NCBI RefSeq assembly: GCF_018141425.1
Contig: NZ_CP058561.1
Location: 1,178,001 to 1,242,000 of the forward strand
Reading direction: 5' to 3'
Length of the DNA: 64,000 nt
Origin: Vallitalea guaymasensis
Lineage (GTDB): Bacteria > Bacillota > Clostridia > Lachnospirales > Vallitaleaceae
Part shown: one piece after another, positions 46,196 through 64,000 of the stretch
How positions within the stretch are numbered: position 1 is the stretch's first letter
Layout: each line of letters begins with the position of its first letter
Notes under the pieces: generated by a model
Database searches by the model: none
What the model saw: the letters and a program-made list of their open reading frames with translations, nothing else
What the model was told of the DNA's origin: nothing
Program-made: the position numbers and the translations under genes

Positions 46196-47236
46196 ATGAA
46201 TAGCAAAAAACTACCCATTAGTAGTACTCCAATTATTGGCTATGTAGTCCATGCATTCCCATTATCAATAATTTTTAATTACGATAAGTGTATGCCCTGG
46301 TTTTCTTGTAACTATATTCAATTGATATGTCGTACTACCCTAAGAAATAATTTTTTTGACTTTTTCACATTATGTACTGCAACTGAAATCCCTTGGGTTG
46401 GTTCTATATATCCTGGTATACCGTGGCTTAATACTCATTCAATAGATAATTACACATTAATTGATTGTAATATAAATATAAACCGATCAATTATTAATTC
46501 ATTAATGCGAGATAACTATATAGTTTGTCATCTTGATGAATACTATGTTCCAAACAGACCTACATACCAAAAAGAACACTTTTTCCATGAAAATATGATT
46601 TATGGTTTTGATAATGATAAAAAGGAATATGATATATTAGGTTTTGATAGTAAGGGTATTTTCAACAGTACCAAAATAAGTTATGATGAATTTGAACAAG
46701 CTTCAAGTGACCTAGCTACACATAATCATGATATAAAACTTTTACATATAAAAGATGATTTTACATATGATTTAGATTTGAATTGCATAAAAAATTCATT
46801 ACTTGATTACCTTAATGGTGAAAACTCTAGCAGTAAGTATACTATACTAAGAAACCCTACTACAGACTTTGCATATGGAATTGATATATATGAGCAACTA
46901 ATTAAATATCTCAAATTATTGCACAATAATGTAGGGGTAAATGATATTAGACCTTTCCATTTATTATGGGAACATAAAAAATGTATGGTAATAAGAATAG
47001 AATATCTCATGAAAAAATATACTGGAACTGTATGTGATTTAGAAGCAATTAAAGATGAATATATCACTATTCAGCAAATCTGCTTTTCAATACGTAACTT
47101 ATTCTTGAAATTTAATATGACAAAACGCGTTGAAATAATAGAAAAAATCATACCTTTATTAGAAGATGTTTGTGATAGAGAACAGAGTATCATACCTAGA
47201 TTTATTACAGAAATAGAACGTTTAGAAAAAGCCTGA
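46196..47236 (+). CDS. BtrH-like N-terminal domain protein of the biosynthetic cluster
   Basis: The 346-aa protein carries a papain-like, peptidase-C39-like fold with VCHLDEYYVPNRPTYQKEHFFHENMIYGFDNDKKEYDILGFD (residues about 105-150). This His-rich D(E)YY...P...H..H..(I)(Y)G segment is the pattern of BtrH N-terminal domains. In butirosin synthesis BtrH transfers an acyl group from an acyl carrier protein to the sugar product. An N-terminal region rich in aromatics and a helical C-terminus complete it. It is transcribed toward the minus-strand cluster from its own promoter. Acyl transfer or release of the polyketide product is a reasonable but unproven role. Confidence 0.6.
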   Translation: MNSKKLPISSTPIIGYVVHAFPLSIIFNYDKCMPWFSCNYIQLICRTTLRNNFFDFFTLCTATEIPWVGSIYPGIPWLNTHSIDNYTLIDCNININRSIINSLMRDNYIVCHLDEYYVPNRPTYQKEHFFHENMIYGFDNDKKEYDILGFDSKGIFNSTKISYDEFEQASSDLATHNHDIKLLHIKDDFTYDLDLNCIKNSLLDYLNGENSSSKYTILRNPTTDFAYGIDIYEQLIKYLKLLHNNVGVNDIRPFHLLWEHKKCMVIRIEYLMKKYTGTVCDLEAIKDEYITIQQICFSIRNLFLKFNMTKRVEIIEKIIPLLEDVCDREQSIIPRFITEIERLEKA

Positions 47237-47246
47237 TACTATAATA

Positions 47247-47304
47247 AGGGACTGTGGATATTATAATACCTCTTCCATAATGGATATATTATATAACAGT
47301 CCCT
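47247..47304. terminator. Shared terminator of the two BtrH-like genes
   Basis: AGGGACTGT (47247-47255) and ACAGTCCCT (47296-47304) form a 9-bp outer stem, with a partly paired AT-rich interior (TATTATAAT against ATATTATA). It lies between convergent stop codons. Confidence 0.6.
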
Positions 47305-47345
47305 CTACTTCCAATCTCTTTGTAATAATTATTGTTATTACCATA

Positions 47346-48911
47346 TCACTCGTTCTTTTTTGCCATTGTGATAGAAAAAATATGCATATTGGGACAATAA
47401 GGCAACTCAATGCTTTTGATGATTTTACTGGAATCAACTGCTATACTAGTACCATATATGTGAACATCAAAATCATAACATTTTATTTTATTATCTTTAA
47501 TTACAGCACCCTCTCCTACCCAAGCTATCAAATCATTAAATCTAGGTGATTCACTTAGCCAAGAAGTCAAGTATAATACCTTCTTCTCCTTAGTACCATC
47601 ATTGTAATTAATTATAATATCGTTTGAATGACTACCAATATCACAACACCCTAGTATAAAAATACTATCATAGCTGGTTTCATCTATTTGATCTATATCT
47701 AGCACTTGTGAATAACATTCAATATTGTCACATGTTTCATTTACATACTTAGGCAATCTAAATTTCATATTTTCTATTTCTAATACATCTATTTCTAGAT
47801 TCTCATTCACCACTAAAAATCTATCATCTCCTATCACATTAGGATAATACGTTTGATTCTCAATATATCCAATAGCATTATTATTAAAATGTGAGGTAAT
47901 ATCTAAATATTGATACTTACTGAATTCATATTTCTTATAATGGGTATATGGAACAAATGGTTTTATAGGCTCATCATCTAAAATCTTATATAACTCATCA
48001 ATGATTTCTTTTTCAAAACTAGCTACTTCCTCTATCTTCTTGGCAACTTTATCAATGTAATCTGATGAATTCTCAATATAGTTAGATTTAATAAGCATCC
48101 CATAGACCATACTCCATACATTAGATACATATATTAACCTATCTATTATGAATTTTAGATCATTAATTTCATATTGTTCCATCAAACACATTAGTGAGAG
48201 TGCGAATCGCCGTCTATTACGGTATACTTCTCCAAGTTTTGAGATTATTGGTGAAACAGATATCATATCTTTATATGGTTCAATCTCTTTTTTAACATCA
48301 AAACTCTTTTTAACGTCCCTAGAAAATTCAATAATACAATGAATCATATTATATTTATTTATACACTTCAATTCTTTTTTTATTAAAGATTTCCAATCTA
48401 GTTTCTTGACTTGTTGTTTTTGCTCAAATGTCAGAAATAATGAATTCCCTTCTGCAAAATCTTTATAAGGCAAAGCTACTTTTTTATTTATAACATATGA
48501 ATCTATACAATAAATATTCTCATCATCCATATCAGTTACAATACAAAAATGATCTGAATGTCTTACTTTGTAGCTTCTAATAATCCAGTGGCAATAATAT
48601 ATATCCATTTTTATAACAACTGGTTTATCTTGTTTGATTTGATCCCGTATAAAATCTATCTTTTCAGATAATGTATTTTTAACAACAATATTAGTATCTA
48701 ATCCATGATATTTATGTAAATATGCCCATTTTAGAGAGTATAATGCAATCTTATCTCCAAGACTTTCCCATTCTTGATTATTATTATAAAGAAAGCGCCA
48801 TGCGTCTATAAACATTAACCTATATTCACACTTTATATATTTAGATATTGCAGCTATCAACATATCCAAACAATCATATGCTGGATTCTCCTCAATCACA
48901 ATATTCATCAT
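47346..48911 (-). CDS. Second BtrH-like protein of the cluster (521 aa)
   Basis: Residues about 1-175 contain the BtrH_N-like core: NPAYDCLDMLIAAISKYIKC, then KPVVIKMDIYYCHWIIRSYKVRHSDHFCIVTDMDDENIYCIDSYV, where the YY and HxDH-type residues align with the plus-strand gene. A helical middle and a C-terminal beta-rich region (about 340-521, NNAIGYIENQTYYPNVIG onward) are extra. AAGGA precedes the ATG. It is the last minus-strand gene of the cluster, 82 bp after the amino acid:carrier ligase. Possible roles are chain release or amide/ester transfer. The C-terminal half is unrecognised. Confidence 0.55.
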   Translation of the reverse strand: MMNIVIEENPAYDCLDMLIAAISKYIKCEYRLMFIDAWRFLYNNNQEWESLGDKIALYSLKWAYLHKYHGLDTNIVVKNTLSEKIDFIRDQIKQDKPVVIKMDIYYCHWIIRSYKVRHSDHFCIVTDMDDENIYCIDSYVINKKVALPYKDFAEGNSLFLTFEQKQQVKKLDWKSLIKKELKCINKYNMIHCIIEFSRDVKKSFDVKKEIEPYKDMISVSPIISKLGEVYRNRRRFALSLMCLMEQYEINDLKFIIDRLIYVSNVWSMVYGMLIKSNYIENSSDYIDKVAKKIEEVASFEKEIIDELYKILDDEPIKPFVPYTHYKKYEFSKYQYLDITSHFNNNAIGYIENQTYYPNVIGDDRFLVVNENLEIDVLEIENMKFRLPKYVNETCDNIECYSQVLDIDQIDETSYDSIFILGCCDIGSHSNDIIINYNDGTKEKKVLYLTSWLSESPRFNDLIAWVGEGAVIKDNKIKCYDFDVHIYGTSIAVDSSKIIKSIELPYCPNMHIFSITMAKKNE

Positions 48912-48993
48912 TTGTATCCTTCCTCTCTGGTATTATATCTAATAATTCCATCATTATCTTGAGTTCTTCTCTCTTCAATTCCTCTACCAGAAA

Positions 48994-49797
48994 TTACTTC
49001 TCATTTATCCACTTAATTAATCTTAACCATCTTTCATGTCCAACACCTACACAACCTGTAACAATCTCATTACTATTATCAAAATTATATGTCTTACTGA
49101 ACTTTGTACCATGATAATTAAATGAAGCAAGAGCAATTTCCCTTTCATCAATATGAACAATCAATTCTCGTTTCATTTGATTCATTAACTGAAATTTTTT
49201 CCATGCTTTCAACTGGTTGGATGAACCAAAGAAATGATCAAAGGCTGGTTGTACAACTGCATCTTCATCTATAGTCAATACATACTGATACAACCACTTT
49301 TCAAATTGTTCTAAGGATTCCCTGACATATGACTCTGATCCAATAAAAATACACTCTCTTACATTGAATTCCCAAAAATGCTGTAATCCATCATGCTTTC
49401 CCCCTTCATATCGATACACTTTTCCTTTTCCTGTAAGGCACATTGATTCTGATATGACTTGGTTTTCAAACATTGGGTAAACATGAAGACAGGCGGCAGG
49501 AGTCAAATATAGCCCACTTAGTTGTGACGTTTCATCTGTAATTTCTCTCTCTGCTTCAATTTGTTCATAGTGGTCTGGATGAGCAACTGCGACTGCAGTT
49601 AATTGATGTCTATTTTTACCAAAATATCCGCTTTTCTCCAATATATCTCTTCTTATAAAAGAGGGTATTATAATATTCTTTGCCTTGAATATCTTTAAGA
49701 ATTCACAGATTTTGTTATCTAACTCTTCAATATAACTGCAATCCTTCTCATCCAAGCAAAAGTATTCATTGTATAATATACTACGATTGTTATTCAT
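48994..49797 (-). CDS. Amino acid:[carrier protein] ligase (class II aaRS-like)
   Basis: This 267-aa protein keeps the class II synthetase core without a tRNA-binding domain. Motif 2 is KVYRYEGGKHDGLQHFWEFNVREC (Arg129, Glu131) and motif 3 is GVGHERWLRLI (Arg256). LTPAACLHVYP near Cys103, an acidic residue in motif 2 and Cys249 before motif 3 correspond to the Cys-Glu-Cys zinc site of SerRS-like amino acid:carrier protein ligases, which load Gly, Ala or similar onto a phosphopantetheine arm. The cluster also encodes a stand-alone carrier and a terminal condensation domain with no adenylation domain, which fits this role. The amino acid used is not readable with confidence. Confidence 0.7.
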   Translation of the reverse strand: MNNNRSILYNEYFCLDEKDCSYIEELDNKICEFLKIFKAKNIIIPSFIRRDILEKSGYFGKNRHQLTAVAVAHPDHYEQIEAEREITDETSQLSGLYLTPAACLHVYPMFENQVISESMCLTGKGKVYRYEGGKHDGLQHFWEFNVRECIFIGSESYVRESLEQFEKWLYQYVLTIDEDAVVQPAFDHFFGSSNQLKAWKKFQLMNQMKRELIVHIDEREIALASFNYHGTKFSKTYNFDNSNEIVTGCVGVGHERWLRLIKWINEK

Positions 49798-49832
49798 GTA
49801 AAAACCTCTCTTTCTCTCTACAGCTTTTAGGC

Positions 49833-51446
49833 TTATATGTTTATAATTCGATCAGCAATAGCCAATGTAGATTCTCTATGTGTAATGGCAATAACACATT
49901 TCCCTTGATTCTTGAGCTCTTTTAATGTCTCCAGGATAATCTTTTCTGATACACTGTCCAAGGCAGCAGTAGGTTCATCCAAAACAATGACAGACGCTTC
50001 TTTTAATAGACTTCTGGCTATGGCAACTCTCTGCTTCTGCCCACCTGATAGATTCATCCCTTCTGTCCCAACTTCATAATCAATATCCAGCTCTTTATGG
50101 ATAGCAGCCTTAGATAAAGCATCAACTATTTGCTCCCTTGTTGCATCAAAATCTCCATACAGGATATTATCAAGTACTGTCCCTTCAAACATATCAGCCC
50201 TTTCTGGTACATATGCAACTTCTTTTCTCAATTCTTGAATGGAGAAATCTTTTATATTAACACCTTTATATAATATCCTACCATTATAATCTACAAACCC
50301 AAGCAATGCTTTGATGAGGCTTGACTTACCACAGCCACTTTGCCCTGAAAACATAACTATTTCACCTTTAGAGAATTCTAGAGAGATGTTATCTAATACA
50401 CATTTTTCCCCATAGAGTAATCTCACATTTTCATACTTTAACAAAGGCTCATTTTCATTATGTAAAGAAGGCTTAATTCCATTATTCTCATCTTCAATAT
50501 CCATAATGTCTAAGACACGGTCTAATGATATTTCATGGGATTTGAAGTTGGAAACAGCCCAACCAAATCCTGATATATGAATTACGATATCCTTACATAA
50601 TTGAGTTATTAAAATTACTTCTGGAATAGATATATAACCCCATGCACTAAACAGGCATGCCACAGGTATCATAAGAGTTGAACATATATAAGAAAATAAA
50701 TCTAATGTAATTATTTTATAAGATTCCATTCTCCCCATCTTATCCTCAACTGATTTTAAGTGCTCTGCTTTATCTTGTAACTTGGAACTTATTTTTTTCT
50801 CAGCATTGATTAGGCGGATACTCATTTTACCTCGCACTGTGTTCTGATATAGATTCATGAAATCGGCCTCACCGTCTAAGTGCATTCGATTCAGTTTTTT
50901 ATGGTACTTTACAAAATACTTGTTGAAGAAAATAATTAAAATACCTATTATTAAGACCATTATCCCAATATAGATATTAACTAGAATGATGGATGCTATA
51001 TATCCTAAACCAACGATAATGGGGTAAATGGATAGTACAACATCATCTGTCACCATAGCTGCTGCTAGATCTGAGTCTGTGTTATATCTTGTCAACGCTT
51101 CTCCATTATCATAGATGGATGTTTTTGATATAGGTCCATTCTGTAGTTTATTATAGATTTCTTGTTGTATGTTGGTTCGTGCAGATAAACGAAATTGTTT
51201 TATTAAAAACGCTGTTATGTATTCAAGTAGATTGGCTATTAATAAACCTACAAAGACAAACCCTAAGAGTAATGCAATATGTTTTATAGTAATACTTTTA
51301 TCTTCAAGTTTTTCCACATATAATTCAAATCCATAGGCATAAATTAAGCGAGCAACCAAAGTCGTCACTGGATAACCCAATATACCAACAATCCATAATA
51401 TTGGATGTTGTTTAATAATTCTTATCATTTTTTTAATAGCTTTCAT
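49833..51446 (-). CDS. ABC exporter half-transporter (membrane plus ATPase)
   Basis: The 537-aa protein has six membrane helices in an ABC_membrane domain (residues about 15-300) and a C-terminal ATPase: Walker A FSGQSGCGKSSLIKALLGF, signature NLSGGQKQRVAIARSLL, Walker B VIVLDEPTAALD and ITHRESTLA. ATG 51446 has AGAGG at a better spacing than ATG 51452. It follows a second half-transporter by 35 bp, so the two probably form a heterodimer that exports the product of the upstream PKS. Confidence 0.9.
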   Translation of the reverse strand: MKAIKKMIRIIKQHPILWIVGILGYPVTTLVARLIYAYGFELYVEKLEDKSITIKHIALLLGFVFVGLLIANLLEYITAFLIKQFRLSARTNIQQEIYNKLQNGPISKTSIYDNGEALTRYNTDSDLAAAMVTDDVVLSIYPIIVGLGYIASIILVNIYIGIMVLIIGILIIFFNKYFVKYHKKLNRMHLDGEADFMNLYQNTVRGKMSIRLINAEKKISSKLQDKAEHLKSVEDKMGRMESYKIITLDLFSYICSTLMIPVACLFSAWGYISIPEVILITQLCKDIVIHISGFGWAVSNFKSHEISLDRVLDIMDIEDENNGIKPSLHNENEPLLKYENVRLLYGEKCVLDNISLEFSKGEIVMFSGQSGCGKSSLIKALLGFVDYNGRILYKGVNIKDFSIQELRKEVAYVPERADMFEGTVLDNILYGDFDATREQIVDALSKAAIHKELDIDYEVGTEGMNLSGGQKQRVAIARSLLKEASVIVLDEPTAALDSVSEKIILETLKELKNQGKCVIAITHRESTLAIADRIINI

Positions 51447-51487
51447 ATACATGTACCTCTCTTATTATTCATGTTTAGAACTATATG

Positions 51488-53218
51488 TTACATTTCTGCA
51501 AACATCATTCCATACTCTTCATTCTTTTCCATAAGTTCCATATGTGGCGCATATCCAGCTATTCTAGCATCTTTTATAAATAAAACCCGGTCAAATCGCT
51601 CAAAATCAATTCCACTATGACAAATTACAATAAAGGTCTTATCTTTTAAATCATCTAAAAATATATCCATAATCCTATTGGTATTATCTTCGTCCAAAGC
51701 TGATGTGGGCTCATCGCAAATATAAACCTGGCTATCTTTCAAAAATGCCCTTGCTATATTAACCCTCTGGTCTTGACCATTAGATAGCATATGGCTTCCA
51801 GTACCAATAACCGTATCTAGTCCATTTTCCAAAGTAGCTATGTATTCATTTAACTGTGCCTTAGTTACAGCCCTTTTCACATCAGTTGTTTTCTTATTTT
51901 CATCAACTATACGGACATTATTACCAATAGTATCATCTAGTATAAAACTCTCTTGAGTAACTACAGCTATATTCTCATAATATCTCTTCTTACTCATATT
52001 ATTAATAGGCTGCCCCATGAATTCTATGGAACCTTCCTGTGGTTCATAGAGATTACACAACAGCTTTAATAAAGTGGATTTACCACAACCGCTTTTTCCA
52101 ACAATAGCTATCTTTTCACCTTTATTTATACTAAAACTAATATTTTTTAATATATAACTATCAGTATAGCAAAAAGATAGATTTTTTATTTCATATGCAA
52201 TATTGCTAGGATTATTGTTATTAATATTTTCTTTCGACTCTTCTTGCTCCTCTTTATTATCCTTTAAGTCTAATATGCTATTTACTCGATCTATGGATGC
52301 TCTAACATTTTGATAATTAGCAGGTATTGATTGAAGAATAGTTATTCCTTGTCCAACTATATCCATTAAAAAAAGCATAGATACCAATTGTCCTAATTGC
52401 AATGTACCATTAATGATATTTTTAGCTCCAATGCCCAACACTAATAAAAATCCAAAATAACCATTCATAGCAGCATAATAATTCATCATTCTGTTAAATA
52501 AGTAAGTTTTGCGCTCTGATTTTTTTAAGTTACTCAGCTTGATTTTATTATCATCCATGAATTTTTTTTCCATATTATATGCCTTGATCATCATTCTGAA
52601 ATTCAAAGAATTTATGAAATAGTTGATTACTTGTCCTTTGTTATCTCTTTCCTTCATGGTAAGAGGATATATTCTTTTTGCCCAAATATTATTCAATAAT
52701 AGGGTAATAAGCAACAAGCCTATAATTGCTACTAAATCAATAAGAGTCCAACTTGTATAAAACATATAGAATATATATATAATACATAATCCCAATTTTA
52801 TAGGCAATTCTCCTAACAGAAATAGGGTATCAAACCATTTTATAAATCCATCAACATCTGTAGACATGATAGATAATATTTTCTTATCATCCTTTGCTTC
52901 AAGTTCTTTATAATCAGAGTAGCATATTTTCTCGGCTACCATTTTCCTTAATCGATACAAAAATCTGTTCTTTACTCTAAAAGATATCCTTTTTTTTATG
53001 AAGCTTGTTAGAACTCTAATGATAACTGCTGCACCAATGATAATAGTATTTCTGACAATTTCTTCATGACTTGCTACATCAATAACAACACCTATCTCAT
53101 AGGTATAAAAAAGCTGTGACAAAGCTGCAATAAATGCTCCTATAAAAACCACTACCAGCATTCTTTTATAGCTTTTACCGTATATTCTCGCTATATTACG
53201 ATTTACTCTTTTTTTCAT
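51488..53218 (-). CDS. ABC exporter half-transporter, partner
   Basis: The 576-aa protein has the same plan: six membrane helices (about 20-300) and ATPase motifs GKSGCGKSTLLKLLCNL, then LSNGQDQRVNIARAFL and VYICDEPTSALDEDN. The signature is LSNGQ rather than LSGGQ, so one of the two composite ATP sites of the heterodimer may be weak, as in many asymmetric exporters. ATG 53218 follows GAGGGG. It lies just downstream of the carrier protein gene with a hairpin between. Confidence 0.88.
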   Translation of the reverse strand: MKKRVNRNIARIYGKSYKRMLVVVFIGAFIAALSQLFYTYEIGVVIDVASHEEIVRNTIIIGAAVIIRVLTSFIKKRISFRVKNRFLYRLRKMVAEKICYSDYKELEAKDDKKILSIMSTDVDGFIKWFDTLFLLGELPIKLGLCIIYIFYMFYTSWTLIDLVAIIGLLLITLLLNNIWAKRIYPLTMKERDNKGQVINYFINSLNFRMMIKAYNMEKKFMDDNKIKLSNLKKSERKTYLFNRMMNYYAAMNGYFGFLLVLGIGAKNIINGTLQLGQLVSMLFLMDIVGQGITILQSIPANYQNVRASIDRVNSILDLKDNKEEQEESKENINNNNPSNIAYEIKNLSFCYTDSYILKNISFSINKGEKIAIVGKSGCGKSTLLKLLCNLYEPQEGSIEFMGQPINNMSKKRYYENIAVVTQESFILDDTIGNNVRIVDENKKTTDVKRAVTKAQLNEYIATLENGLDTVIGTGSHMLSNGQDQRVNIARAFLKDSQVYICDEPTSALDEDNTNRIMDIFLDDLKDKTFIVICHSGIDFERFDRVLFIKDARIAGYAPHMELMEKNEEYGMMFAEM

Positions 53219-53247
53219 ATACACCCCTCTTACCTATCATTGTTAGT

Positions 53248-53313: not shown

Positions 53314-53562
53314 TTAACTTTTTTCTTTATTCCTTATAACTAAATCGATAATACTTGTTACGTCTGAATAATTTTCCATATTATAGTCTTCGTAAGATAC
53401 CTCTAGGTCAAAATTTTCTTCTATGAATAATATGAGCTCAACAACAAAAATGGAACTAAATTCATTAATGGATTCTAGCTGAGTTGTTTCTGTAATCTCT
53501 TCTGATTGAAGCTTCTCTCTAACATACTCTAATAGTTTATCTTTAATTTCATCTCTATTCAT
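53314..53562 (-). CDS. Stand-alone acyl/peptidyl carrier protein
   Basis: The 82-aa protein has the four-helix carrier fold: DEIKDKLLEYVREKL, then INEFSSIFVVELILFIEENFDLEVSYEDY, then a last helix DVTSIIDLVIRNKE. Ser37 in EFSSIFVVEL aligns with the phosphopantetheine Ser of the G-x-DSL-x-x-VEL motif; the usual preceding Asp is Ser here. ATG 53562 is chosen because AGGAG lies 7 nt upstream. It starts just after the megasynthase stop. It is the natural partner of the amino acid:carrier ligase, supplying an aminoacyl thioester to the terminal condensation domain. Confidence 0.8.
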   Translation of the reverse strand: MNRDEIKDKLLEYVREKLQSEEITETTQLESINEFSSIFVVELILFIEENFDLEVSYEDYNMENYSDVTSIIDLVIRNKEKS

Positions 53563-53576
53563 ATTCATTCTCCTCA

Positions 53577-56500
53577 CTAAGCGGTGATAATATTTTTACC
53601 TTCTAATACATCAGTCACAATATCACCTATTTTCTCTTCTCCTTTTATTTTGGTAATATGACCTAATAGTGCTAGATACTTATCAATGAAATCATGAACC
53701 TTTTCTTCACTAAATTCATTGGAATAATCAACTTTCATGACTAAGAAAGAATTCTTATTGGTGATTTGTATATCAATATCGTATTTAGCAAAGCTAACTG
53801 GAAGGATTATATCCCCAGAACCTTTTCTTTCTCCTTCTACAATATCCATATTAGGGCTCTCATAATCAAACATGATATTAAATAGGTTGGAACTACCATC
53901 CTTATGGGTTTTTCTGTATTTTTCCACCATCCTATCATATGGATAGCATTGATTGGCTAAATCATTATTAATATTCTTTTTCATCTCAAGAATGAAATCA
54001 CTTAACAGCTTATCTGCCACTGGATAATTTCTCATTGGAAGAGTATTAGTAAACATTCCCACGATATTCATGACATCCTCATGTACTCGCCCTATACATG
54101 GAACACCTACAATTACGTCTTCACTGGAATCAAACATATGTATTACCAGATTAATACCCATTAGGAACATGGCAAATAACGAAGCATTATTCGTTTTAGC
54201 TACTTTTTCAAGGCTATTTATCAGTTCTTGATCCAAGGTCAGGCTAAAACTTCCAGATTGGTCTTGTTTATCCTGGGACTCAAAATCTTGAAGATAGTTT
54301 TCTCGTACATAACCCTTCAAACGTTCATCCCAATATCCTTCCATCTTGTTATATTCTGTTGATTGTACGAAATCTTTCTCATATTCAATATAGTGTTTAT
54401 ATTGATATGTAGCTTCAGCTAATGGTGATTCAGTTATGATATCATTAAGCTCTCTATTAATAATACTAGATGAGTAACCATCAATAATAATATGATGCAT
54501 ATCAAAAAATAGCACACAACCACCATTCCCCAGTTCAATGACCGACACCTTAAAGAGCGGAGCTTTACCTAAATTAAATTCTGTTAGTAATTCATTATAG
54601 TCAATATCATTTATATCCTCTTGATAATAATAAGATATATCCGGTTCAATATCTTCTTCAACCCTTTGACATATGGATTTACCATTAAAATAGAAACTTG
54701 TTCTAAGGACATCATGTCGATCCATTAGAGTCTTAATACAATGGTATGCATTTTCTTTTGATTCCATTTTATCCAGCTTGAATGCGAATGGATTATTGTA
54801 TATCTTTTTATTTTTACTTCTCTTATAAACCACATACATTCTCTTTTGAGCGTAGCTTAATTCGCCTGTCCACTGGGAATCTAAATATTTACTTAGGATA
54901 CCTGTTTCCTCTTTTTCTTCTTTCCCAACTGTCTTCTTCATTAACTCATCATGAATAAACTCTGACAAAGTATATATTGATGTATATTCAAAGAGATTTG
55001 CCACATTGACAATATCTGAATATAGGTTGTCAATATACCCATGCATCCTAGTTAATAGAATAGAATCTCCGCCCATTTCAAAGAAGTTATCATAAATATC
55101 AATATCATCATATCCTAGTATTTTTGAATATATCTTACATAAGTTATCCTGTATATCTTCTATTTCGTTAGAAATCACTTTATTATCAATATTTAATTCA
55201 TCTATCATATCTAGATGGCTAGTTTTTTCGCTATGTGGAAGAATTAGCAATTTCCCTTTTTTAACTTGGGCTACTTCAAATCCATCTTCAGTCAGTATAC
55301 GATCACCTTTATGTCTATTCATATAGATTTTCTTTAGATGATCCATCTTCTCTTGAATATCCTCTGAAATCCTATTTCGGCTATAATCACTTATAACTAA
55401 TAAATTCTCATTGATATTATACTGTCCAATAATTACTTTTCTCACCGGACTCTGTAACAGTCTGTCAAGATAATAGATGGCTTGGGAAGTAGTGATGGCT
55501 TTTGTAATGGTATCCACATTAATACCATATCTCACGGACATACCCGTTTCCTTCCATGAAACCCAATTAATAACATAAGTTCTGTCACCTCTAGCATTTC
55601 GATAATCAACAAAGGCATCTAAATAAGAGTTAGCACCTACATAATCACTTTGACCTGCTTCTCCTGAAAAAGTAACTGCCGAAGAATAAAGCATTATAAA
55701 ATCTAATTTCTCATCCTTAGTTAATTGATCAATTATCCAAGTTCCTCTCACCTTAGGAGCTAATACCTGTGCAAATTCCTCTTTTTCCTTTCTTAGTATA
55801 TAACCAGCACCAGCAATTCCAGCTGAGTGGAAAATACCATGAACCCTACCTACTTCTTCCTTTATCTGTTGATAGACCTGTTTCATGCCTTCATAATCCG
55901 AAATATCTACAGCATAAATGAGTACTCTAACACCATTTTCTTCGATTTCTCTTAGAATAGCAGTTTTCTTTTTATGCTCATCACTTAGGTCAGGGGAATT
56001 CCACTCTTCTCTAGGAAGAAAACCACTCCGTCCTAGTAAGGTAACACTACTACATCCTTTTACCGACAGATATTTTGCGGTTTCAATACCTATATCTCCT
56101 AATCCACCTGTGACTATATAGTTACCATCTTCTCTAATGATATCACCCTGTGGCATGACTGTTTCTTCTGTAAAGCATTCCACATATCTAATACCTTCTC
56201 TAAATCCAACAAGATAAAGTTTTCTATCCTTCGTAAGAATTTCATCTACTGCCAATGGCATATCCTGAGCATCTTGTATGTCTATTGCTCTACATTCAAT
56301 ATTAGGATATTCTTGTTCAATGACCTTACCAATACTTAGCACTACAGCATTTTCAGGATATAATACCTTTTCCTTCTTAGATATACTATAAGCACATTGT
56401 GACAGAATGATTAATTCAAGATTCTTGCTATAATGTGTATTTATCATGGCTTTGATTAGATTAATAATATGATAAAAACCATTATCTAAACTCTCTTCAA

Positions 56501-59500
56501 TCTGCTCATATTCTGTATTATCCATTATGTTGGCATTTTCTCTCTTATTATTCTCCTCACTTATGGAAGCAAGGTGAATTATTTTATCAATATCATAAGA
56601 GTTGATTGCTTCAAATAATTGTACACAGGATTCTATAGAATTATTGATTCTATAGATTGAATCATCAACCTTCTCATAGGTTTCACCAAGGAATACCTGA
56701 ATCACATTGATTCCTCGTTCAGTTAGAAGCTCTGCCATATGATGCATAGCAAAGTAACTGCTATGGAAAAGCAAATAGGTTTTTCCTGTTTGGCTACCAT
56801 CAAGATTACTTTCCCCATAATCTTCTCTCATCCACTTCATGGTGTAATAGAAACTATCAAAATTAACACTCTCTATCTCATCTGGATCAGAAGGAGGTGG
56901 GAACCAACAATACTCTTTCTTATAAGGATAAGTTGGAAGATGGAGGTGGTATCCTTCCTTATTGTAAAGTTGAAGCCAATCAATATCAGCACCTTTTGTA
57001 TATGCTTCCAACAATTTTTCCATACTCTTTTTATCTCTATTATGTATAACATCTTCTAACAGTTTTTCAGCCTTATGATTCAATACCTTATGTTCTTCCA
57101 CTGTCAATTCAAAATCTTGTCGTACCTTTTTGTTTTCAGAAACAATTGCGTATTTACCTTGATGAATTCTATAATTGTCATCATCACCATTAAGGTAAGC
57201 TTCTAATGAAGAAATAAGTTCATTAATGCTATTGACCCTAAATCCTACTCTATAATTATAGTGACCTCTTCCTGTAGCAAGGGTATATAGTACATCATAA
57301 AGATTCTTTTCTTCATTACTGCAAAGCCATTGTATTAGATTCTGTGCTAGTATTTTCAAACCCTCTTGATATTTCGCAGAAATTACAAATACAGTAGGAG
57401 TATCTTCTATCATTTCTTCATATTCAATCTTTGGTGGTTCCTCAAGAACAATATGACAATTGGTTCCACTCATTCCTAACCCTGTAATTCCAGCTCGTCT
57501 AGGAGTATCTTCTCTCTTCCACTCTCTTTTCAAAGCACTCATATATACAGGTGAATTAATAAAATCAATGTTCTGATTAGGCTCTTGGAAAAATACTGTA
57601 GGAGGCAACTCCCTATACTTCATCATTAACAGTACTTTAATGATACCGCTGATACCAGATGCTTCATTGAGATGTCCTATATTGGGCTTAATTGTTCCTA
57701 ATGCACAGAACTGTTTTTTGTCTGTGAAAGCTTGAAAAGCATGGGTAATACCTTTAACTTCAATTGGGTCACCTAACGCTGTCCCCGTACCATGGGCTTC
57801 AATATAACTAATTGTTTCCGGTTCTATTCCCGATTGAAGCCAAGCCTTTTGTATAACCTCTGATTGAGCAAGGTAATTAGGAGCAGCTATACCAAATGAA
57901 CTTCCATCCTGATTGGAAGAACTTCCTTTAATAACGCCATATACACTATCCTTATCCTCCAAAGCTTTTGATAGAGGTTTTAATAAGATAGCTCCAACTC
58001 CTTCTCCAACGGCAGTCCCCATAGCTCCTTCTGAAAAAGATCTTGTCTTTTCTTCACTGGATTCAAATCCAACTGTAAATCCACCAGCTAAAGGAGACAT
58101 GGTTATGGATGCTCCTCCAACCAATGCCATATCGCATTCTCCACTTCGTATTTGTTGACATGCTGTATGCATGGCTACTAACGAAGATGAACAAGCTGTA
58201 TCAATAACCATAGTTGGTCCTTTCAAATCATTTACATAAGCAATTCGGCTTGCTGCCATACTTACTTGATTCACTGGTAATGACTCTCCGAATAATTCTG
58301 CATCCAATTCATACAAGATACGGCTATACAAATTACCTAGATTGGCTGTATAACCTAGAAAAACACCTGTGTTGCTTCCTCTTATTTTCAATCCTCCATA
58401 TCCTGCATCTTCTATAGCACTGTTACAACACTGTAAGAAGAGTCTATTGATAGGATCAATTAATTTGGCTTCTCTTGGTGACATATTAAAGAGTTCATAA
58501 TCAAACTTATTTATTTCATCTAAGTAAGCACATTTGTTAAATCTAATATTATCTTTCTCCATACCCAAATAACGAAAATGTTTTCTTAGATCCTTAGCTC
58601 TTTCTTCTGGTATTTCCCTGACTACACTTACTCCATTAATAATCATTTCCCAATATTCATCTATATTTTTCGCACAAGGTAGATCAATTCCTATACCAAT
58701 GATAGCAACGTCCTTTTCACCGTAGTGTTTTGGTACATTATTAACTCTCTCTTTTGATTCCTTATCTCTTTTAGAGGTTATATCTTGTTTGGAATCTAGA
58801 TACTCTGATAATTGCCTTACGCTAGGATAAGCAAATAAATCTGTTAATTGTAACCTTTCTGGATAATACTCATTTATGATATTGAAAATATGCCCCATTA
58901 GAATAGAATCTGCACCCATTTCAAAAAAGTTGTCATTGATATCAATTTCTTCATATCCCAATACTTCTTGACAGGCATGAGCAATCTTAACTTCGATATC
59001 ACTATACTGGGAATCACCAGTACCTGATATCATCTTTGGCCTATCCGTAACATTTTTTTTCTTATTCTTATCCTTCAATGCAGCCAATTGATCCATAATA
59101 TACTCTGAATACTTAATAGGATAATTGTTCATCATCAAAGCTATTGGACTATCAAAATTCAACTCTCCAATAATTATATTCGTATAATCTGATCCTAAAA
59201 CATCTAGAAAGCCTTTTATTCCGTCTTTAGTTTTAATTGTCTTGAATAATGTATCAACAGTAAAATTATGCTCTACTGACATACCTATTTCAGACCATGT
59301 TGCCCAATTTATAGTATATGTCTTACCACATCTGTTAGCCTTCCTATATTGACAAAAGTAATCAAGATAGGTATTTGCCGCAGTATAAGCAGATAATTCA
59401 ATACTACTGAAAACAGTGGCAATAGATGAATATAGAACAAAAAAGTCCAGGTTATCTTCTTTAGTTAATTGATCCAGATTCCAGGTACCATATACTTTTG

Positions 59501-62390
59501 GCTTAAGCATTGCATCAATATCTTCTACGGTGGTACTTTCAATTAATCTTCCCCCACCTATTCCAGCTGCATGAATGACACCGTTTATTTTTCCATATTT
59601 CTTTCTGACTGTAGTTAATATTTCTTCCATTCTATCATATTTAGATATGTCAGCTTTGTAATATTCTATGTTTTTAGACAAGTGAGCCAATGTAGTATAT
59701 CTATTATATTTCTCTAGCATTTTTTCCTGACCTGGATCAATATCCCCACTAGTAACAAGCTCACTTCGACCTATAACTATGAGTGTAGTGTCTTTTGTTG
59801 TTTCACAGATTTTCTTGGCTGTCTCATAACCGATTCCACCTAATCCTCCAGTAACAATATAAACACCTGAATCAATTAATAATTCACTACTATCTTGACC
59901 TGATGGTATGATTTCTTTTAACCTTTCAACATACCTTATATTGTTTCGATAGACTACAACCTCTTCTTTGTTCTTGGAATTTATTTCTTGAATAATATAA
60001 TCAAGTGTTGTCTCATAATCATAATCAACAAAGCAAAACTTGATTTTCTTCAATTCTTTACTTATACATTTACCTAATCCTAAAGCTGTCGTATTTTGAG
60101 GATTGATTACTTCTTCGTCGCCAGTAATACTAATACCATTTTTTGATAAAACCACTAATTTAACATTTTCCTGATTTTCATTATTACTAATTAATTTAGC
60201 CAACCATAATAATGTATGCAGATTATTCTCCTGCATAATCATAAGCTTATCCATATCTTCTGTATTACACTCATATAATGAATATATGATGTGAGAAACT
60301 TTCTTCATCTTCTCCAGAATTTCTTCCTTTTGTTGTTCTAGTGCATGGACATTTTTTAATAAAACAGTGTCTCCATTGCTTTTTTTCTTCAATACCCCTT
60401 GTTTTAGGTCTTCTATCTGACTTTCGTCCCAGCCAATAATCAATATATTTTCTGGAGCATTGTTTACATTCATAATATGTTCCATTTGGAAATCTTTGGT
60501 ATAGTATAATTTTTTCTTATTTTTGTAGACTTTCTTAGGCAACCATAAGCTTGTTGGTTGGAATGGGTATACTGGCAAATGAATATGCATACCTTTATAT
60601 TCTCCATACATTTTTTCCCATTGTGGAGTAGCTCCCAAAACGAAATACTCACATACTTCTTCCAAGTCTTTCCTTTCCAAGGTCTCAGCCTCTAATAATC
60701 CATTAAGCTTACCTGTTAATTCATCCATTTGTTTTAACATAGCTTTTCGGCTCTTATAATCACTATTATCTCTTACTATCATGTGATAATATATCTCTTG
60801 GTCTGGGTATTCAATTAATCCATTGTTATCAATATGTTTTAATTTCCTTAACAAGTCTTCCTTGCTGGTTACGACAAAGGCTATTCTCCTATCATAGATA
60901 TCATTATATAGATTGACATTGTAACAAAAATTATAATAATCAACTTCTTCATAGTTTTCTCTTATATACTCCAAATACTGCCTGATCTTAGCCTTAAGAC
61001 TATACTCTGATTTTGCAGCTATACTTATGAGTGTTGGTTTGTCAACCGTCTTCCTATTCTCTTCTTCACAGTTGTTATAGGCTTCCAATACAACATGGCA
61101 ATTGGTTCCGCTTAAACCAAAAGCACTAACTCCTGCAATGTATTTTTTCCCATTATCTATGTAACTTCTTGCTTCCGTATTTACATAGACAGGTGAGTTG
61201 ATAAAATCAATGTTCGTGTTAGGTGACATAAAATTGATTGTAGGAGGAATTGTTTTATGTCTCATAGATGCTACCACTTTTAATAATGCAGCTAATCCTG
61301 AGCATTCATACATATGTCCTAAATTACTTTTTGATGACCCAATAGCACAAAACTGTTTTTTATCAGTAAATCTGCAAAAAGCTTTATTGATGCCTTGTAT
61401 CTCAATGGGATCACCTAATCCTGTAGCTGTTCCATGTGCTTCAATGTACTGTATATCTTCTGGATTAATATTCGCTTTGTTCCAAGCATCCACCATTACA
61501 TCAGATTGAGCTGTTGGATTAGGTGCTGTTAATCCTGAAGCTGTTCCATCGTGATTAATGGAACTTGATTTGATAACTGCATATATAAGGTCTCCATCTT
61601 TTTCTGCCAAATCTAGTGGCTTCACAAGAACGGTACAACACCCTTCACCCATAGAAGAGCCATCTGCTCCTGAATCAAAGGTTCTTGTCTTACCATCTAG
61701 TGCCTCTATCCCTATTTTCATGTTATCCAAAATCAGAGGCAAGACATTAAGCTTAAGACCTCCTGCTACAGCCATTTCACAATTACCTGATAAGATATGC
61801 TCACAAGCCTCATGAAGAGCAACAAGAGCTGAAGAACATGCTGTATCCATAACCATAGTAGGGCCTTTCAAATCCAGCAGATGTGCAATTCTTGATGGTA
61901 TAAGCGGTGCCATATTACCAGTCATTGAATAAGGTAATAAATCTGGATGATTCAATGCTATATCGACAATATAATTATCCTTTAAGGACGATGAGGTATA
62001 ACCTAGAAATACCCCTGTTTTTGATTGCTTGAGTCTCTCAGCCGTATAGCCTGCATCATCAAATGTATTTCGTATGGTTTCTAAAAAAATACGTTGAGCT
62101 GGGTCCATTAATGAAGCCTCTCGTGGTGAGAGCTGAAAAAATTCATTATCAAATTCATCAATTCTTCCGATATAAGAACCTTGATAGAATTTTGGTTCTT
62201 CGCCACTATCATTAAAAATGTTGACTAACCCCTCCACACCTTTGGCTCTATATTTTGGAAAGTCCTCAGTACAGCCTATTTTGTTCTTGATAATTTCCCA
62301 ATATTCTTCTAAATCCCTAGCACAAGATATTTTTAATCCGATACCAATAATAGCAATATCTTTTCTTGGTTCTTTCCTCTTATTTTCCAT
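53577..62390 (-). CDS. Trans-AT PKS-NRPS megasynthase KS-KR-ACP-KS-KR-ACP-C
   Basis: The protein is 2937 aa from ATG 62390, which has AGGAGAG upstream. Domains in order: KS1 (about 10-440; Cys185 in DTACSSALV, EAHGTATGLGDP, NLGHMYE), an inter-domain region, KR1 (about 840-1030; GGLGGIG, active Tyr in SAYTAANTY near 1002), ACP1 (Ser near 1161 in GADSIL), KS2 (about 1223-1650; Cys near 1398, EAHGTGTALGDP, NIGHLNE), KR2 (about 2090-2280; GGLGDIG, SDYVGANSY near 2249), ACP2 (Ser near 2441 in GGDSIL) and a condensation domain (about 2505-2937; HHIIIDG near 2630). No GHSxG acyltransferase, dehydratase or thioesterase is present. Each module should add a beta-hydroxy ketide unit from a trans-acting AT; the final C domain joins an amine. 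Confidence 0.9.
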   Translation of the reverse strand: MENKRKEPRKDIAIIGIGLKISCARDLEEYWEIIKNKIGCTEDFPKYRAKGVEGLVNIFNDSGEEPKFYQGSYIGRIDEFDNEFFQLSPREASLMDPAQRIFLETIRNTFDDAGYTAERLKQSKTGVFLGYTSSSLKDNYIVDIALNHPDLLPYSMTGNMAPLIPSRIAHLLDLKGPTMVMDTACSSALVALHEACEHILSGNCEMAVAGGLKLNVLPLILDNMKIGIEALDGKTRTFDSGADGSSMGEGCCTVLVKPLDLAEKDGDLIYAVIKSSSINHDGTASGLTAPNPTAQSDVMVDAWNKANINPEDIQYIEAHGTATGLGDPIEIQGINKAFCRFTDKKQFCAIGSSKSNLGHMYECSGLAALLKVVASMRHKTIPPTINFMSPNTNIDFINSPVYVNTEARSYIDNGKKYIAGVSAFGLSGTNCHVVLEAYNNCEEENRKTVDKPTLISIAAKSEYSLKAKIRQYLEYIRENYEEVDYYNFCYNVNLYNDIYDRRIAFVVTSKEDLLRKLKHIDNNGLIEYPDQEIYYHMIVRDNSDYKSRKAMLKQMDELTGKLNGLLEAETLERKDLEEVCEYFVLGATPQWEKMYGEYKGMHIHLPVYPFQPTSLWLPKKVYKNKKKLYYTKDFQMEHIMNVNNAPENILIIGWDESQIEDLKQGVLKKKSNGDTVLLKNVHALEQQKEEILEKMKKVSHIIYSLYECNTEDMDKLMIMQENNLHTLLWLAKLISNNENQENVKLVVLSKNGISITGDEEVINPQNTTALGLGKCISKELKKIKFCFVDYDYETTLDYIIQEINSKNKEEVVVYRNNIRYVERLKEIIPSGQDSSELLIDSGVYIVTGGLGGIGYETAKKICETTKDTTLIVIGRSELVTSGDIDPGQEKMLEKYNRYTTLAHLSKNIEYYKADISKYDRMEEILTTVRKKYGKINGVIHAAGIGGGRLIESTTVEDIDAMLKPKVYGTWNLDQLTKEDNLDFFVLYSSIATVFSSIELSAYTAANTYLDYFCQYRKANRCGKTYTINWATWSEIGMSVEHNFTVDTLFKTIKTKDGIKGFLDVLGSDYTNIIIGELNFDSPIALMMNNYPIKYSEYIMDQLAALKDKNKKKNVTDRPKMISGTGDSQYSDIEVKIAHACQEVLGYEEIDINDNFFEMGADSILMGHIFNIINEYYPERLQLTDLFAYPSVRQLSEYLDSKQDITSKRDKESKERVNNVPKHYGEKDVAIIGIGIDLPCAKNIDEYWEMIINGVSVVREIPEERAKDLRKHFRYLGMEKDNIRFNKCAYLDEINKFDYELFNMSPREAKLIDPINRLFLQCCNSAIEDAGYGGLKIRGSNTGVFLGYTANLGNLYSRILYELDAELFGESLPVNQVSMAASRIAYVNDLKGPTMVIDTACSSSLVAMHTACQQIRSGECDMALVGGASITMSPLAGGFTVGFESSEEKTRSFSEGAMGTAVGEGVGAILLKPLSKALEDKDSVYGVIKGSSSNQDGSSFGIAAPNYLAQSEVIQKAWLQSGIEPETISYIEAHGTGTALGDPIEVKGITHAFQAFTDKKQFCALGTIKPNIGHLNEASGISGIIKVLLMMKYRELPPTVFFQEPNQNIDFINSPVYMSALKREWKREDTPRRAGITGLGMSGTNCHIVLEEPPKIEYEEMIEDTPTVFVISAKYQEGLKILAQNLIQWLCSNEEKNLYDVLYTLATGRGHYNYRVGFRVNSINELISSLEAYLNGDDDNYRIHQGKYAIVSENKKVRQDFELTVEEHKVLNHKAEKLLEDVIHNRDKKSMEKLLEAYTKGADIDWLQLYNKEGYHLHLPTYPYKKEYCWFPPPSDPDEIESVNFDSFYYTMKWMREDYGESNLDGSQTGKTYLLFHSSYFAMHHMAELLTERGINVIQVFLGETYEKVDDSIYRINNSIESCVQLFEAINSYDIDKIIHLASISEENNKRENANIMDNTEYEQIEESLDNGFYHIINLIKAMINTHYSKNLELIILSQCAYSISKKEKVLYPENAVVLSIGKVIEQEYPNIECRAIDIQDAQDMPLAVDEILTKDRKLYLVGFREGIRYVECFTEETVMPQGDIIREDGNYIVTGGLGDIGIETAKYLSVKGCSSVTLLGRSGFLPREEWNSPDLSDEHKKKTAILREIEENGVRVLIYAVDISDYEGMKQVYQQIKEEVGRVHGIFHSAGIAGAGYILRKEKEEFAQVLAPKVRGTWIIDQLTKDEKLDFIMLYSSAVTFSGEAGQSDYVGANSYLDAFVDYRNARGDRTYVINWVSWKETGMSVRYGINVDTITKAITTSQAIYYLDRLLQSPVRKVIIGQYNINENLLVISDYSRNRISEDIQEKMDHLKKIYMNRHKGDRILTEDGFEVAQVKKGKLLILPHSEKTSHLDMIDELNIDNKVISNEIEDIQDNLCKIYSKILGYDDIDIYDNFFEMGGDSILLTRMHGYIDNLYSDIVNVANLFEYTSIYTLSEFIHDELMKKTVGKEEKEETGILSKYLDSQWTGELSYAQKRMYVVYKRSKNKKIYNNPFAFKLDKMESKENAYHCIKTLMDRHDVLRTSFYFNGKSICQRVEEDIEPDISYYYQEDINDIDYNELLTEFNLGKAPLFKVSVIELGNGGCVLFFDMHHIIIDGYSSSIINRELNDIITESPLAEATYQYKHYIEYEKDFVQSTEYNKMEGYWDERLKGYVRENYLQDFESQDKQDQSGSFSLTLDQELINSLEKVAKTNNASLFAMFLMGINLVIHMFDSSEDVIVGVPCIGRVHEDVMNIVGMFTNTLPMRNYPVADKLLSDFILEMKKNINNDLANQCYPYDRMVEKYRKTHKDGSSNLFNIMFDYESPNMDIVEGERKGSGDIILPVSFAKYDIDIQITNKNSFLVMKVDYSNEFSEEKVHDFIDKYLALLGHITKIKGEEKIGDIVTDVLEGKNIITA

Positions 62391-62403
62391 AATTCTCTCT
62401 CCT

Positions 62404-64000
62404 CTAGCCAATTAGAGTTTCCATTTCTCTTCTAACATTTACTCTCTCCATTATATACTCAGCCAATGTCTCAATGGTGGTATATTCAAAAAGCTCTGCA
62501 ATGGCTATACAATCACCATATTTTATATTAATCGCCATATGTAATTTGGCTATTTGAAGAGAGTTTAGTCCCATAGACATAAATGACCCACTATAATCGA
62601 TTTGGTTATCTACAATATCTTCTAGAGTGTCTGCAATAAAATCCTCAATAGAAGATACATCGCATTCTATAATATTATTAGCCTTATCCATTTCACAAGT
62701 TAATGCAGCTATTTGCTCATCGTAATCACCTTTTATATAATTATTTATCAGCTTATACCGCTGCACTTTTCCACTAACTGTGGTGGGGATATTATCTACC
62801 AAGACAAAATCGTTAATATATATTCCTAAAACATTATTCATATGTGACAATACATTTTTAATTTTACTGACTAGTGTTTCCATAGGAGTGTTCCCTTTGA
62901 TGAAACAAATCACATTATCATTAACATCATCTACATTTTTACGATATCCATGAATAACTATTCTCTCCTCAGTGAATATATTTAGCTTCTGAATGTAACG
63001 TTCAATATCATTATCATAATAATTCTTACCATTATATATAAACATCTCTTTATAACGGGCTGTAATATGTAAATTTCCATCATAGATAAAGCCAATATCA
63101 CCTGTATTGAACCACTCATCAATAAAATTTTCATCCCGTTTACGATTATAATAATTATTTAGTACACACTTTCCTGCAATAAAGATTAAGCCAACACGCC
63201 CATCCTCCAATGTATTACCTTCTAGATCAACTATCTTCAACTTGAAGGCAGGAAGAGGCTTTCCTACACTAATTATTTCTGAAGCCATGGGATCATCATC
63301 CGAAACTATCTCTAAGGTATGACCAATACTCATACTCTCTTTATTAACGGATATTTTCTTTATAAAATCATCATCTGTAGTAACAGAAACACCCAAAGTA
63401 CCTTCTGTTAATCCATATGATGGAGATAATACTTTACGCTGGAAATTACATTCTTTCATGTACTTGGCAAATTCATTACATAAATTGATGGATATAGGTT
63501 CTGCTCCTAAGAACATTGAATGTATACTAGAGAAATCCCACTCATCTTTAACTCCTTTTTCTTGTAATAGTTTAATAATAAAATTAAGATAGAAATTAGT
63601 GCCAGATGTAACGGTTCCTCTTACTTTATTACAGTAATCCAAATAGAATGCTGGATCTTTTACCACATATTGCGTGTCAATGATATGGGCATCACAATTA
63701 TGCCTGATAGGTAGAAATATATTAAAAAATAATCCAAAATTGTGGTATGAAGGAATCCATGTAACGAATACTTCTTCTCCATAAATATGTCGAGATGATA
63801 GAATATCATCAACATTTGTTATAATTCCTTGATTTGTTATCCCCACTCCTTTTAGGTCTTTAGTTGAACCTGATGAAAATTGAATATAAGCTATATCCAA
63901 ACCACTCTCTTCTTTAGATAGAACTAAATCATCTATTTCTGTGACTGGTTCTAAAAACATTTCATCCAGACTTATTGTCATTTCTTCATTCCAGAATACA
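62404..64000 (-). CDS. FAAL-type AMP ligase fused to a carrier domain, 5' truncated
   Basis: The frame is open to the right edge, so the N-terminal part is missing. The visible 530 residues start in the ligase: YIQFSSGSTKDLKGVGITNQGI, FVTWIPSYHNFGLFFNIFLPI, MFLGAEPI and SPSYGLTEGTLGVSV, the pattern of fatty acyl-AMP ligases. The loop has SGSTKDLKG where SGSTGDPKG is usual. A C-terminal carrier domain has GLNSLQIAKLH with the phosphopantetheine Ser. The gene ends 13 bp before the megasynthase start. It most likely activates a carboxylic acid starter and hands it to KS1. The free chain length is unknown. Confidence 0.82.
   Translation of the reverse strand, partial: VFWNEEMTISLDEMFLEPVTEIDDLVLSKEESGLDIAYIQFSSGSTKDLKGVGITNQGIITNVDDILSSRHIYGEEVFVTWIPSYHNFGLFFNIFLPIRHNCDAHIIDTQYVVKDPAFYLDYCNKVRGTVTSGTNFYLNFIIKLLQEKGVKDEWDFSSIHSMFLGAEPISINLCNEFAKYMKECNFQRKVLSPSYGLTEGTLGVSVTTDDDFIKKISVNKESMSIGHTLEIVSDDDPMASEIISVGKPLPAFKLKIVDLEGNTLEDGRVGLIFIAGKCVLNNYYNRKRDENFIDEWFNTGDIGFIYDGNLHITARYKEMFIYNGKNYYDNDIERYIQKLNIFTEERIVIHGYRKNVDDVNDNVICFIKGNTPMETLVSKIKNVLSHMNNVLGIYINDFVLVDNIPTTVSGKVQRYKLINNYIKGDYDEQIAALTCEMDKANNIIECDVSSIEDFIADTLEDIVDNQIDYSGSFMSMGLNSLQIAKLHMAINIKYGDCIAIAELFEYTTIETLAEYIMERVNVRREMETLIG

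Follow-up and report, generated by a model that had tools for sequence, protein, structure and literature searches.

An aminoacyl-tRNA synthetase-like ligase as the possible source of the amino acid for a trans-acyltransferase polyketide synthase of Vallitalea guaymasensis

From where does a polyketide synthase (PKS) that ends in a condensation (C) domain receive an amino acid, if its operon holds no amino-acid adenylation (A) domain? This question is raised by a stretch of 64,000 nucleotides from Vallitalea guaymasensis (G000:C1:1178001-1242000 in a single-contig genome of 5.63 Mb; hereafter the window; genomes and loci are designated by G and L numbers, respectively). An operon of 18 co-directional genes, separated by gaps of -35 to 89 bp, runs from window position 47346 to ~77751 and extends ~13.8 kb beyond the right edge of the window. 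Besides the PKS, it encodes a stand-alone acyl carrier protein (ACP2) and, as the 17th gene, a truncated relative of class II aminoacyl-tRNA synthetases (aaRSs). We propose a chain in which the aaRS-like ligase would charge ACP2 and the terminal C domain would use the aminoacyl-ACP2; we regard this as the best single scheme for the locus and put its probability at roughly 45%.

The ligase gene (48994..49797, minus strand) encodes a short-form protein of 267 aa, which phmmer, Foldseek, and motifs assign to the class II aaRS-like amino acid:[carrier protein] ligases (AaCPLs). A preliminary description of the locus had named here a truncated class II synthetase with no tRNA-binding part, and the open reading frame (ORF), the motifs (LTPAACLHVYP, R129-Y-E131 of motif 2, and GVGHER with R256 of motif 3), and Pfam agree with it: the only Pfam match was to PF00587, with a score under the cut-off, and there was none to a tRNA-binding domain. 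In the phmmer search against solved structures, Bll0957 of Bradyrhizobium was nearest (6.1e-14) and the best seryl-tRNA synthetase matched at 1.2e-6. The NCBIfam ranking placed PRK07080 first with 82.4 bits, far under its cut-off of 357 bits. The structure prediction and zinc-site alignment that had been suggested as a check bore the identity out. An AlphaFold2 model based on six sequences (mean predicted local distance difference test score, pLDDT, of 83.3) retrieved entries of Bll0957, some of them carrier-bound, at all of ranks 1-10 in Foldseek, with TM-scores by query of 0.71-0.79, rmsd of 4.7-5.0, and identities of 22-25%. C103, E148, and C249 align with the zinc ligands of Bll0957, and these three residues as well as R129, E131, and R256 were invariant in 26 of 26 aligned relatives (three of which are orthologues). 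Bll0957 (3mey, 3mf1, 3mf2, 3pzc, 4h2s, 4h2w) and the AaCPL of V. guaymasensis are thus alike in fold, zinc set, motifs 2 and 3, the absence of a tRNA-binding part, and a carrier nearby, but they are only 25% identical in the Foldseek alignment, and the latter has a shorter N-terminus and is encoded in the operon of a PKS that ends in a C domain. Against G014, the ratio of nonsynonymous to synonymous substitution rates (dN/dS) was lowest for AaCPL (0.079), followed by the C domain (0.11), ACP2 (0.18), and the BtrH-like gene described below (0.22), at dS of 0.8-1.0, implying that the ligase is under purifying selection. Altogether, the sequence, the predicted fold, and the invariant active-site residues support the assignment of this protein to the amino acid:[carrier protein] ligases.

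The PKS (53577..62411, minus strand; 2944 aa) was annotated by Pfam and motifs as an acyltransferase (AT)-less protein of the architecture KS-KR-ACP-KS-KR-ACP-C (KS, ketosynthase; KR, ketoreductase), no AT domain being matched in it by Pfam. Its C domain, reported earlier to be intact, spans residues 2517-2921 (Pfam, 3.9e-75) with HHIIIDG encoded at 54477-54497, and its nearest solved relative is tyrocidine synthetase 3 (TycC; 5e-52), a canonical C domain of nonribosomal peptide synthetases. The statement of the preliminary description that the visible cluster holds no A domain has to be corrected, as it overlooked the gene at 62404..64383 (minus strand), which codes for an AMP-binding protein with a C-terminal carrier domain, resembling fatty acyl-AMP ligases (FAALs) in Pfam and NCBIfam. 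The window ends at 64000 and includes 531 of the 659 aa; PF00501 was matched at 1.9e-33 on this visible part and at 3.4e-43 on the whole protein. We examined this AMP-binding domain as the missing amino-acid A domain and rejected the idea, as the fatty acyl-AMP ligases head the ranking of this protein (PRK09192, 237.9 bits) and the score for amino-acid adenylation domains is lower (TIGR01733, 82.4 bits), neither reaching its cut-off. Based on this ranking, the FAAL-like protein probably activates a starter acid. The search past the right edge for A domains met an AMP-binding gene at the edge itself, but no amino-acid A domain for the C-domain module was found in the operon, of which the FAAL-like gene is the sole AMP-binding match. 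In the whole genome, there were 22 AMP-binding matches, and the nearest ones other than the FAAL-like gene lie ~377 kb (a 507-aa frame) and ~489 kb away from the operon.

The gene for ACP2 follows the PKS after a gap of 14 bp (53314..53562 from ATG or 53314-53577 from an upstream GTG, minus strand). ACP2 had no Pfam match and gave NCBIfam acyl-carrier matches down to 2.6e-6, all under their cut-offs; the column of the phosphopantetheine Ser is occupied in the alignment, and the stand-alone carrier proposed earlier is upheld. In all three congeneric clusters, the ACP2 gene lies directly after the C domain. The pairing of AaCPLs with carriers is supported more widely, since a carrier gene or a fused carrier domain was found at 12 of 15 AaCPL loci (the three orthologous clusters counted once; ORFs of each locus searched with our own profile of eight carriers, and part of them with Pfam) and the two are a single protein in G866. 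No carrier was found with AaCPL in G500, G321, and G101, the nearest carrier-like ORF in the last being ~19 kb distant. We regard it as likely that AaCPL charges ACP2 at all. A second carrier, ACP1, is encoded past the right edge (L002:7505-7756) between FkbH and a 3-hydroxyacyl-CoA-dehydrogenase-like protein (HBDH). ACP1 is 33-47% identical to seven FkbH-linked carriers and 25% identical to ACP2, and shares the motif [FY]..S[LM]FA.Q with the former and with the carriers of two Streptomyces cassettes (see below). We rejected ACP2 as the carrier of FkbH, for which ACP1 is a better fit.

In G866, the carrier domain is fused to the C-terminus of AaCPL (L042:8788-10278; PF00550, 1.4e-6), and no other biosynthetic gene was recognised nearby at L042.

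The operon starts with genes for an acyl-CoA dehydrogenase (ACAD), the electron transfer flavoprotein (ETF) subunits EtfB and EtfA, three carbamoyltransferases, HBDH, ACP1, FkbH, a stand-alone AT, and a thioesterase, followed by the FAAL-ACP, the PKS, ACP2, two ATP-binding cassette (ABC) transporters, AaCPL, and the BtrH-like protein; ACP1, the trans-AT, FkbH, the dehydrogenases, and the carbamoyltransferases are thus encoded past the right edge of the window. From these genes and their domains, and from the synteny, active-site residues, and purifying selection observed, we infer a trans-AT hybrid assembly line in which an aaRS-like ligase would stand in for an A domain. The FAAL-like protein would load a carboxylic acid onto its own carrier, and the AT-less PKS would carry out two extensions, for which the stand-alone AT would supply the units; at least one of these is probably hydroxymalonyl-ACP1 made by FkbH and HBDH. 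AaCPL would form an aminoacyl-AMP and then charge free ACP2, and the terminal C domain would couple the polyketide chain to the amine of the aminoacyl-ACP2. Release from ACP2 might be performed by the BtrH-like acyltransferase or the thioesterase. The three carbamoyltransferases would then carbamoylate the product, which the ABC pair would export. The number of carbamoyltransferases equals that of the hydroxyls predicted (two from KR and one from hydroxymalonyl), which we regard as arithmetic and not as evidence.

The use of ACP2 by the C domain is favoured because the sole AMP-binding match in the operon is FAAL-like, the ACP2 gene follows the C domain in three of three clusters, and the TycC-like C domain is intact. 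The operon is syntenic in three of six congeners, except that the cluster of G015 has no gene for the 521-aa BtrH-like protein; the retention of AaCPL, ACP2, and the C domain in that cluster is a further point in favour of the proposed scheme. We also searched 72,556 plasmid records (PLSDB, whose gene tables may be incomplete) for homologues of the PKS. Among the 691 records that matched at 1e-50, one covered at least 80% of the protein in one place, namely NZ_CP117836 of Alkalihalophilus pseudofirmus DSM 8715. The Alkalihalophilus PKS, 40.6% identical over 2575 residues, contains a pair each of KS and KR domains together with three carrier domains and likewise ends in a C domain, and its neighbours code for BtrH_N, AaCPL, ACP, HBDH, ACP, ACAD, FkbH, AT, thioesterase, two ABC transporters, a second AT, and a phosphopantetheinyl transferase, no A domain being annotated in these gene tables. 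The two clusters differ in several respects: the Alkalihalophilus AaCPL is 28.5% identical to that of V. guaymasensis and belongs to a different clade together with those of G866, Priestia koreensis, and Streptomyces decoyicus, the ACAD is of the FkbH-linked type, an AT and the phosphopantetheinyl transferase are extra, and neither ETF nor carbamoyltransferase is annotated in the stretch. The terminal C domain of this PKS is accompanied by a ligase of another AaCPL clade, two free carriers, and BtrH_N, with no annotated A domain, as though the PKS type required such a ligase of whichever subfamily. Thus, counting this one record, PKSs of the same design appear to have carrier-charging aaRS-like ligases of different subfamilies as partners, one pair being in Clostridia and the other in Bacilli, which is our best indication that the ligase works for the assembly line itself.

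Several observations weigh against the proposed chain. The Alkalihalophilus carrier beside AaCPL is not beside the C domain, and AaCPLs occur with BtrH-type or oxidase genes at loci with no C domain (e.g., L036 and L037). The ACAD of the operon groups with AaCPL-linked ACADs, so that ACP2 may be a platform for oxidation, and this oxidase link is absent from Alkalihalophilus. An A domain of another cluster, among the 22 AMP-binding matches of the genome, could act in trans. The plasmid gene tables carry the limit given above, and the scheme was deduced from sequence data. Of the earlier suggestion that the C domain uses an aminoacyl-carrier, the position of ACP2 and the Alkalihalophilus cluster speak for retention, and the BtrH-type and ACAD contexts speak against it. 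Since several AaCPLs elsewhere sit beside BtrH-type or ACAD-like genes at loci with no C domain, the charged carrier may serve a different or a further purpose.

One such purpose would be that known for the side chain of butirosin, in which BtrI is the carrier and BtrJ is the ligase. The operon shares with that system a free carrier, a dedicated amino acid ligase, and a candidate gene for a BtrH-type acyltransferase, although the butirosin ligase is of another superfamily and the operon has a PKS and a C domain in addition. BtrH is described as an ACP:aminoglycoside acyltransferase in PMC10318531. By analogy, AaCPL would charge ACP2, the BtrH-like transferase would move the aminoacyl group to an amine or hydroxyl of the product, and the C domain would use a different acceptor, such as a free amine. 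The candidate transferase (47346..48911, minus strand; 521 aa) has a papain-like N-terminal half retaining C14, H121, and D137, the first two being present in five of five rows covering them and the last in six of six. PF14399 was matched at 4.1e-6 (27.5 bits versus a cut-off of 29.7) at first, and with 30.1 bits, above the cut-off, in the whole-genome search. The profile of the family matches solved BtrH_N proteins at 2e-7, but the single sequence gives no such match. Among the 13 AaCPL-bearing genomes (16 genomes were searched), eight have a PF14399 match within 8.4 kb of AaCPL, albeit this count includes the three orthologous clusters separately and is not of independent cases; 10 of the 37 PF14399 matches in the 13 genomes are near AaCPL (6 of the 10 above cut-off), with ~0.2 expected from the genome sizes. 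BtrH-type genes neighbour AaCPL in Alkalihalophilus, in G629 (AaCPL, ACP, and BtrH with no C domain), on a plasmid of Priestia koreensis (adjoining AaCPL and carriers), and in G498 (with genes for a pyridoxal phosphate [PLP]-dependent decarboxylase and ATP-grasp). On the other hand, there is no counterpart of the 521-aa gene in the G015 cluster, albeit a weak PF14399 match lies 3.7 kb from AaCPL there; the best match to the gene itself in G015 is 23% identical and ~85 kb distant. The gene evolves faster than AaCPL (dN/dS of 0.22 vs. 0.08), its first Pfam match was under the cut-off, and the C domain would be left with no known acceptor. We consider this route doubtful as the main fate of ACP2.

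The other alternatives concern oxidation and the identity of the partner carrier. Aminoacyl-ACP2 might be oxidised by ACAD and EtfAB, with or without a preceding step by HBDH. The product would be a dehydroaminoacyl thioester or, in the case of serine, an aminomalonyl-ACP extender that the trans-AT would load as in the zwittermicin pathway, AaCPL standing in for the adenylation enzyme. The best solved match of the operon ACAD is the prolyl-ACP dehydrogenase 4irn (4e-91), with which it shares the motifs EWER and YSGT; it is closest to the dehydrogenases of carrier-bound aminoacyl groups, including the EWER glutamate, albeit its NCBIfam PigA match (361 bits) is under the cut-off of 500 bits. In contrast, seven FkbH-linked ACADs carry DYGR or DLGR and IEG (or VEG), one of which, when tested, matched FkbI (1r2j, 1.8e-62); for the operon ACAD, the 60 matches listed out of 73 did not include FkbI. 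In a tree of 15 ACADs, the operon ACAD joined that of L036 (99/98; 57% identical) and then those of two Streptomyces plasmids (91/91; 42 and 40% identical), with the seven FkbH-linked ACADs on one side of a 99/98 branch, but the support for the group of six ACADs was only 91/91 and the program flagged long branches. The HBDH tree was not decisive. Aminoacyl oxidation is also consistent with the gene sets of L036 and the Streptomyces cassettes and with the order ACP-ACAD-AaCPL in Mycetohabitans and Priestia megaterium, of which the ACADs are distant from that of the operon (18-19% identical). All gene types of an aminomalonyl-ACP cassette (a candidate Ser-loading ligase, a carrier, HBDH, ACAD, and AT) are present in the operon. 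Nevertheless, both ACP2 and the Alkalihalophilus ACPa are devoid of [FY]..S[LM]FA.Q, the motif of the extender-type carriers, which counts against a role of ACP2 in supplying extender units; the Alkalihalophilus ACAD is of the FkbH type, L036 has no HBDH, and AMP-binding genes likewise lie nearby in the Streptomyces records. Since we found no second ACAD in the operon, this one may instead serve hydroxymalonyl-ACP1; the gene order is HBDH-ACP-ACAD-FkbH in six of six plasmid FkbH loci opened and HBDH-ACP1-FkbH here. We regard oxidation on ACP2 as rather unlikely to be its principal use, but it could precede or follow condensation, and the routes are compatible. It is improbable that AaCPL does not serve ACP2 but charges ACP1 or a carrier of the PKS, with the A domain of another cluster or a free amine supplying the C domain. 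The 22 AMP-binding matches and the ACP1-like motif of the Streptomyces carriers beside AaCPL are in line with that possibility; the position of ACP1 between HBDH and FkbH and its identity to FkbH-linked carriers, the distances to the nearest other AMP-binding matches, and the adjacency of AaCPL to its own non-FkbH carrier in G629 and Alkalihalophilus argue against it.

How does the chain from AaCPL via ACP2 to the C domain compare with known systems? Zwittermicin-type pathways for hydroxymalonyl- and aminomalonyl-ACP, the latter starting with an adenylation enzyme, share FkbH, HBDH, stand-alone carriers, and AT with the operon, which differs from them in that its ACAD is not of the FkbH-linked type and an aaRS-like ligase takes over from the adenylation enzyme. 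The FAD-dependent oxidation leading to hydroxymalonyl-ACP is assigned to ZmaE in PMC4207774. AaCPLs have been characterised biochemically; a 2010 note on the first of them (PMC2922099) relays the suggestion of those who described them that they act in non-ribosomal peptide synthesis, and predicts instead that a linked ligase performs a transfer to a sugar of the cell surface. Among the open-access papers listed in our searches, none described an AaCPL within a PKS cluster or an aminomalonyl one; the ligase family is known, and its PKS setting may be new. A PKS line depending on AaCPL would tie the ligase family to natural product assembly, and genome-mining rules that seek A domains would overlook the amino acid in these pathways; AaCPL relatives are labelled 'hypothetical protein' in several plasmids, including the Streptomyces cassettes. 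Tentatively, aaRS-derived ligases may be a further general feed of amino acids into thiotemplated lines besides A domains and ATP-grasp ligases, with the carrier deciding the fate: acceptors for PKS-tethered C domains in the present cluster type (in Clostridia and Bacilli, by ligases of two subfamilies), oxidised or aminomalonyl extenders in Streptomyces, and donors for BtrH-type transferases. The small soluble pair of ligase and carrier would also be a handy part for engineering.

Within the family, 3 of 22 genomes (that of V. guaymasensis counted) gave a match to AaCPL, all of them in one genus (three of six congeners). The surveys of the order, class, and phylum gave matches in 7 of 392, 6 of 391, and 2 of 398 genomes, respectively, the phylum being surveyed with a profile and a stricter limit. 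A first pattern scan of genome contigs yielded 10 hits, none of which was confirmed; a second scan yielded five AaCPL loci, two of which had already been found. The closest AaCPL outside the genus is that of L036 (54% identical). At L036:2576-10871, the gene set is a compact ABC-ABC-AaCPL-ACAD-EtfB-EtfA-ACP-thioesterase with neither PKS nor C domain, as if an oxidised amino acid were made and exported. The plasmids of Streptomyces NBC_00984 (L043:5800-14174) and NBC_00557 (L047:1548-9718) carry KS-thioesterase-HBDH-ACP-ACAD-AaCPL-AT, with no FkbH in the stretch seen; judging from the gene content, they look like aminomalonyl-type extender cassettes with an aaRS-like ligase replacing the adenylation enzyme. 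The locus L032:1987-8673 encodes BtrH_N, a carrier, ATP-grasp, a PLP decarboxylase, ABC, AaCPL, and a carrier, which amounts to an aaRS-like ligase added to a butirosin-like side-chain set.

As for the BtrH-like proteins, the C-terminal part of the 521-aa protein (residues ~393-516) resembles AziU2/Azi28 of azinomycin biosynthesis (2e-11 with the family profile and 9e-4 with the single sequence). Its structure model (pLDDT of 37.6) was set aside and is the basis of no claim. We rejected CtaC of closthioamide as a lead, since PMC6772006 presents it as an adenine nucleotide alpha-hydrolase, which is not BtrH-like. The 6.3-Mb genome of G015 contains ten PF14399 (BtrH_N) matches, several of which are paired. 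Outside the operon, 46196..47236 (plus strand) encodes a divergent BtrH-like relative with no N-terminal Cys, located beside the cluster in all three congeners; it had no Pfam match, and the profile of its relatives matched solved structures with a best E-value of only 0.33.

Pfam identified a membrane and an ATPase domain in each of the two ABC transporters (51488..53224 and 49833..51452, both on the minus strand). The three tandem carbamoyltransferase genes past the right edge (L002:8614-14690; PF16861, 2e-51 to 4e-54) are kept in all three congeneric clusters. Near the cluster, window positions 44746-45297 encode an RNA 2'-phosphotransferase of the Tpt1/KptA family (PF01885, 6.3e-42).

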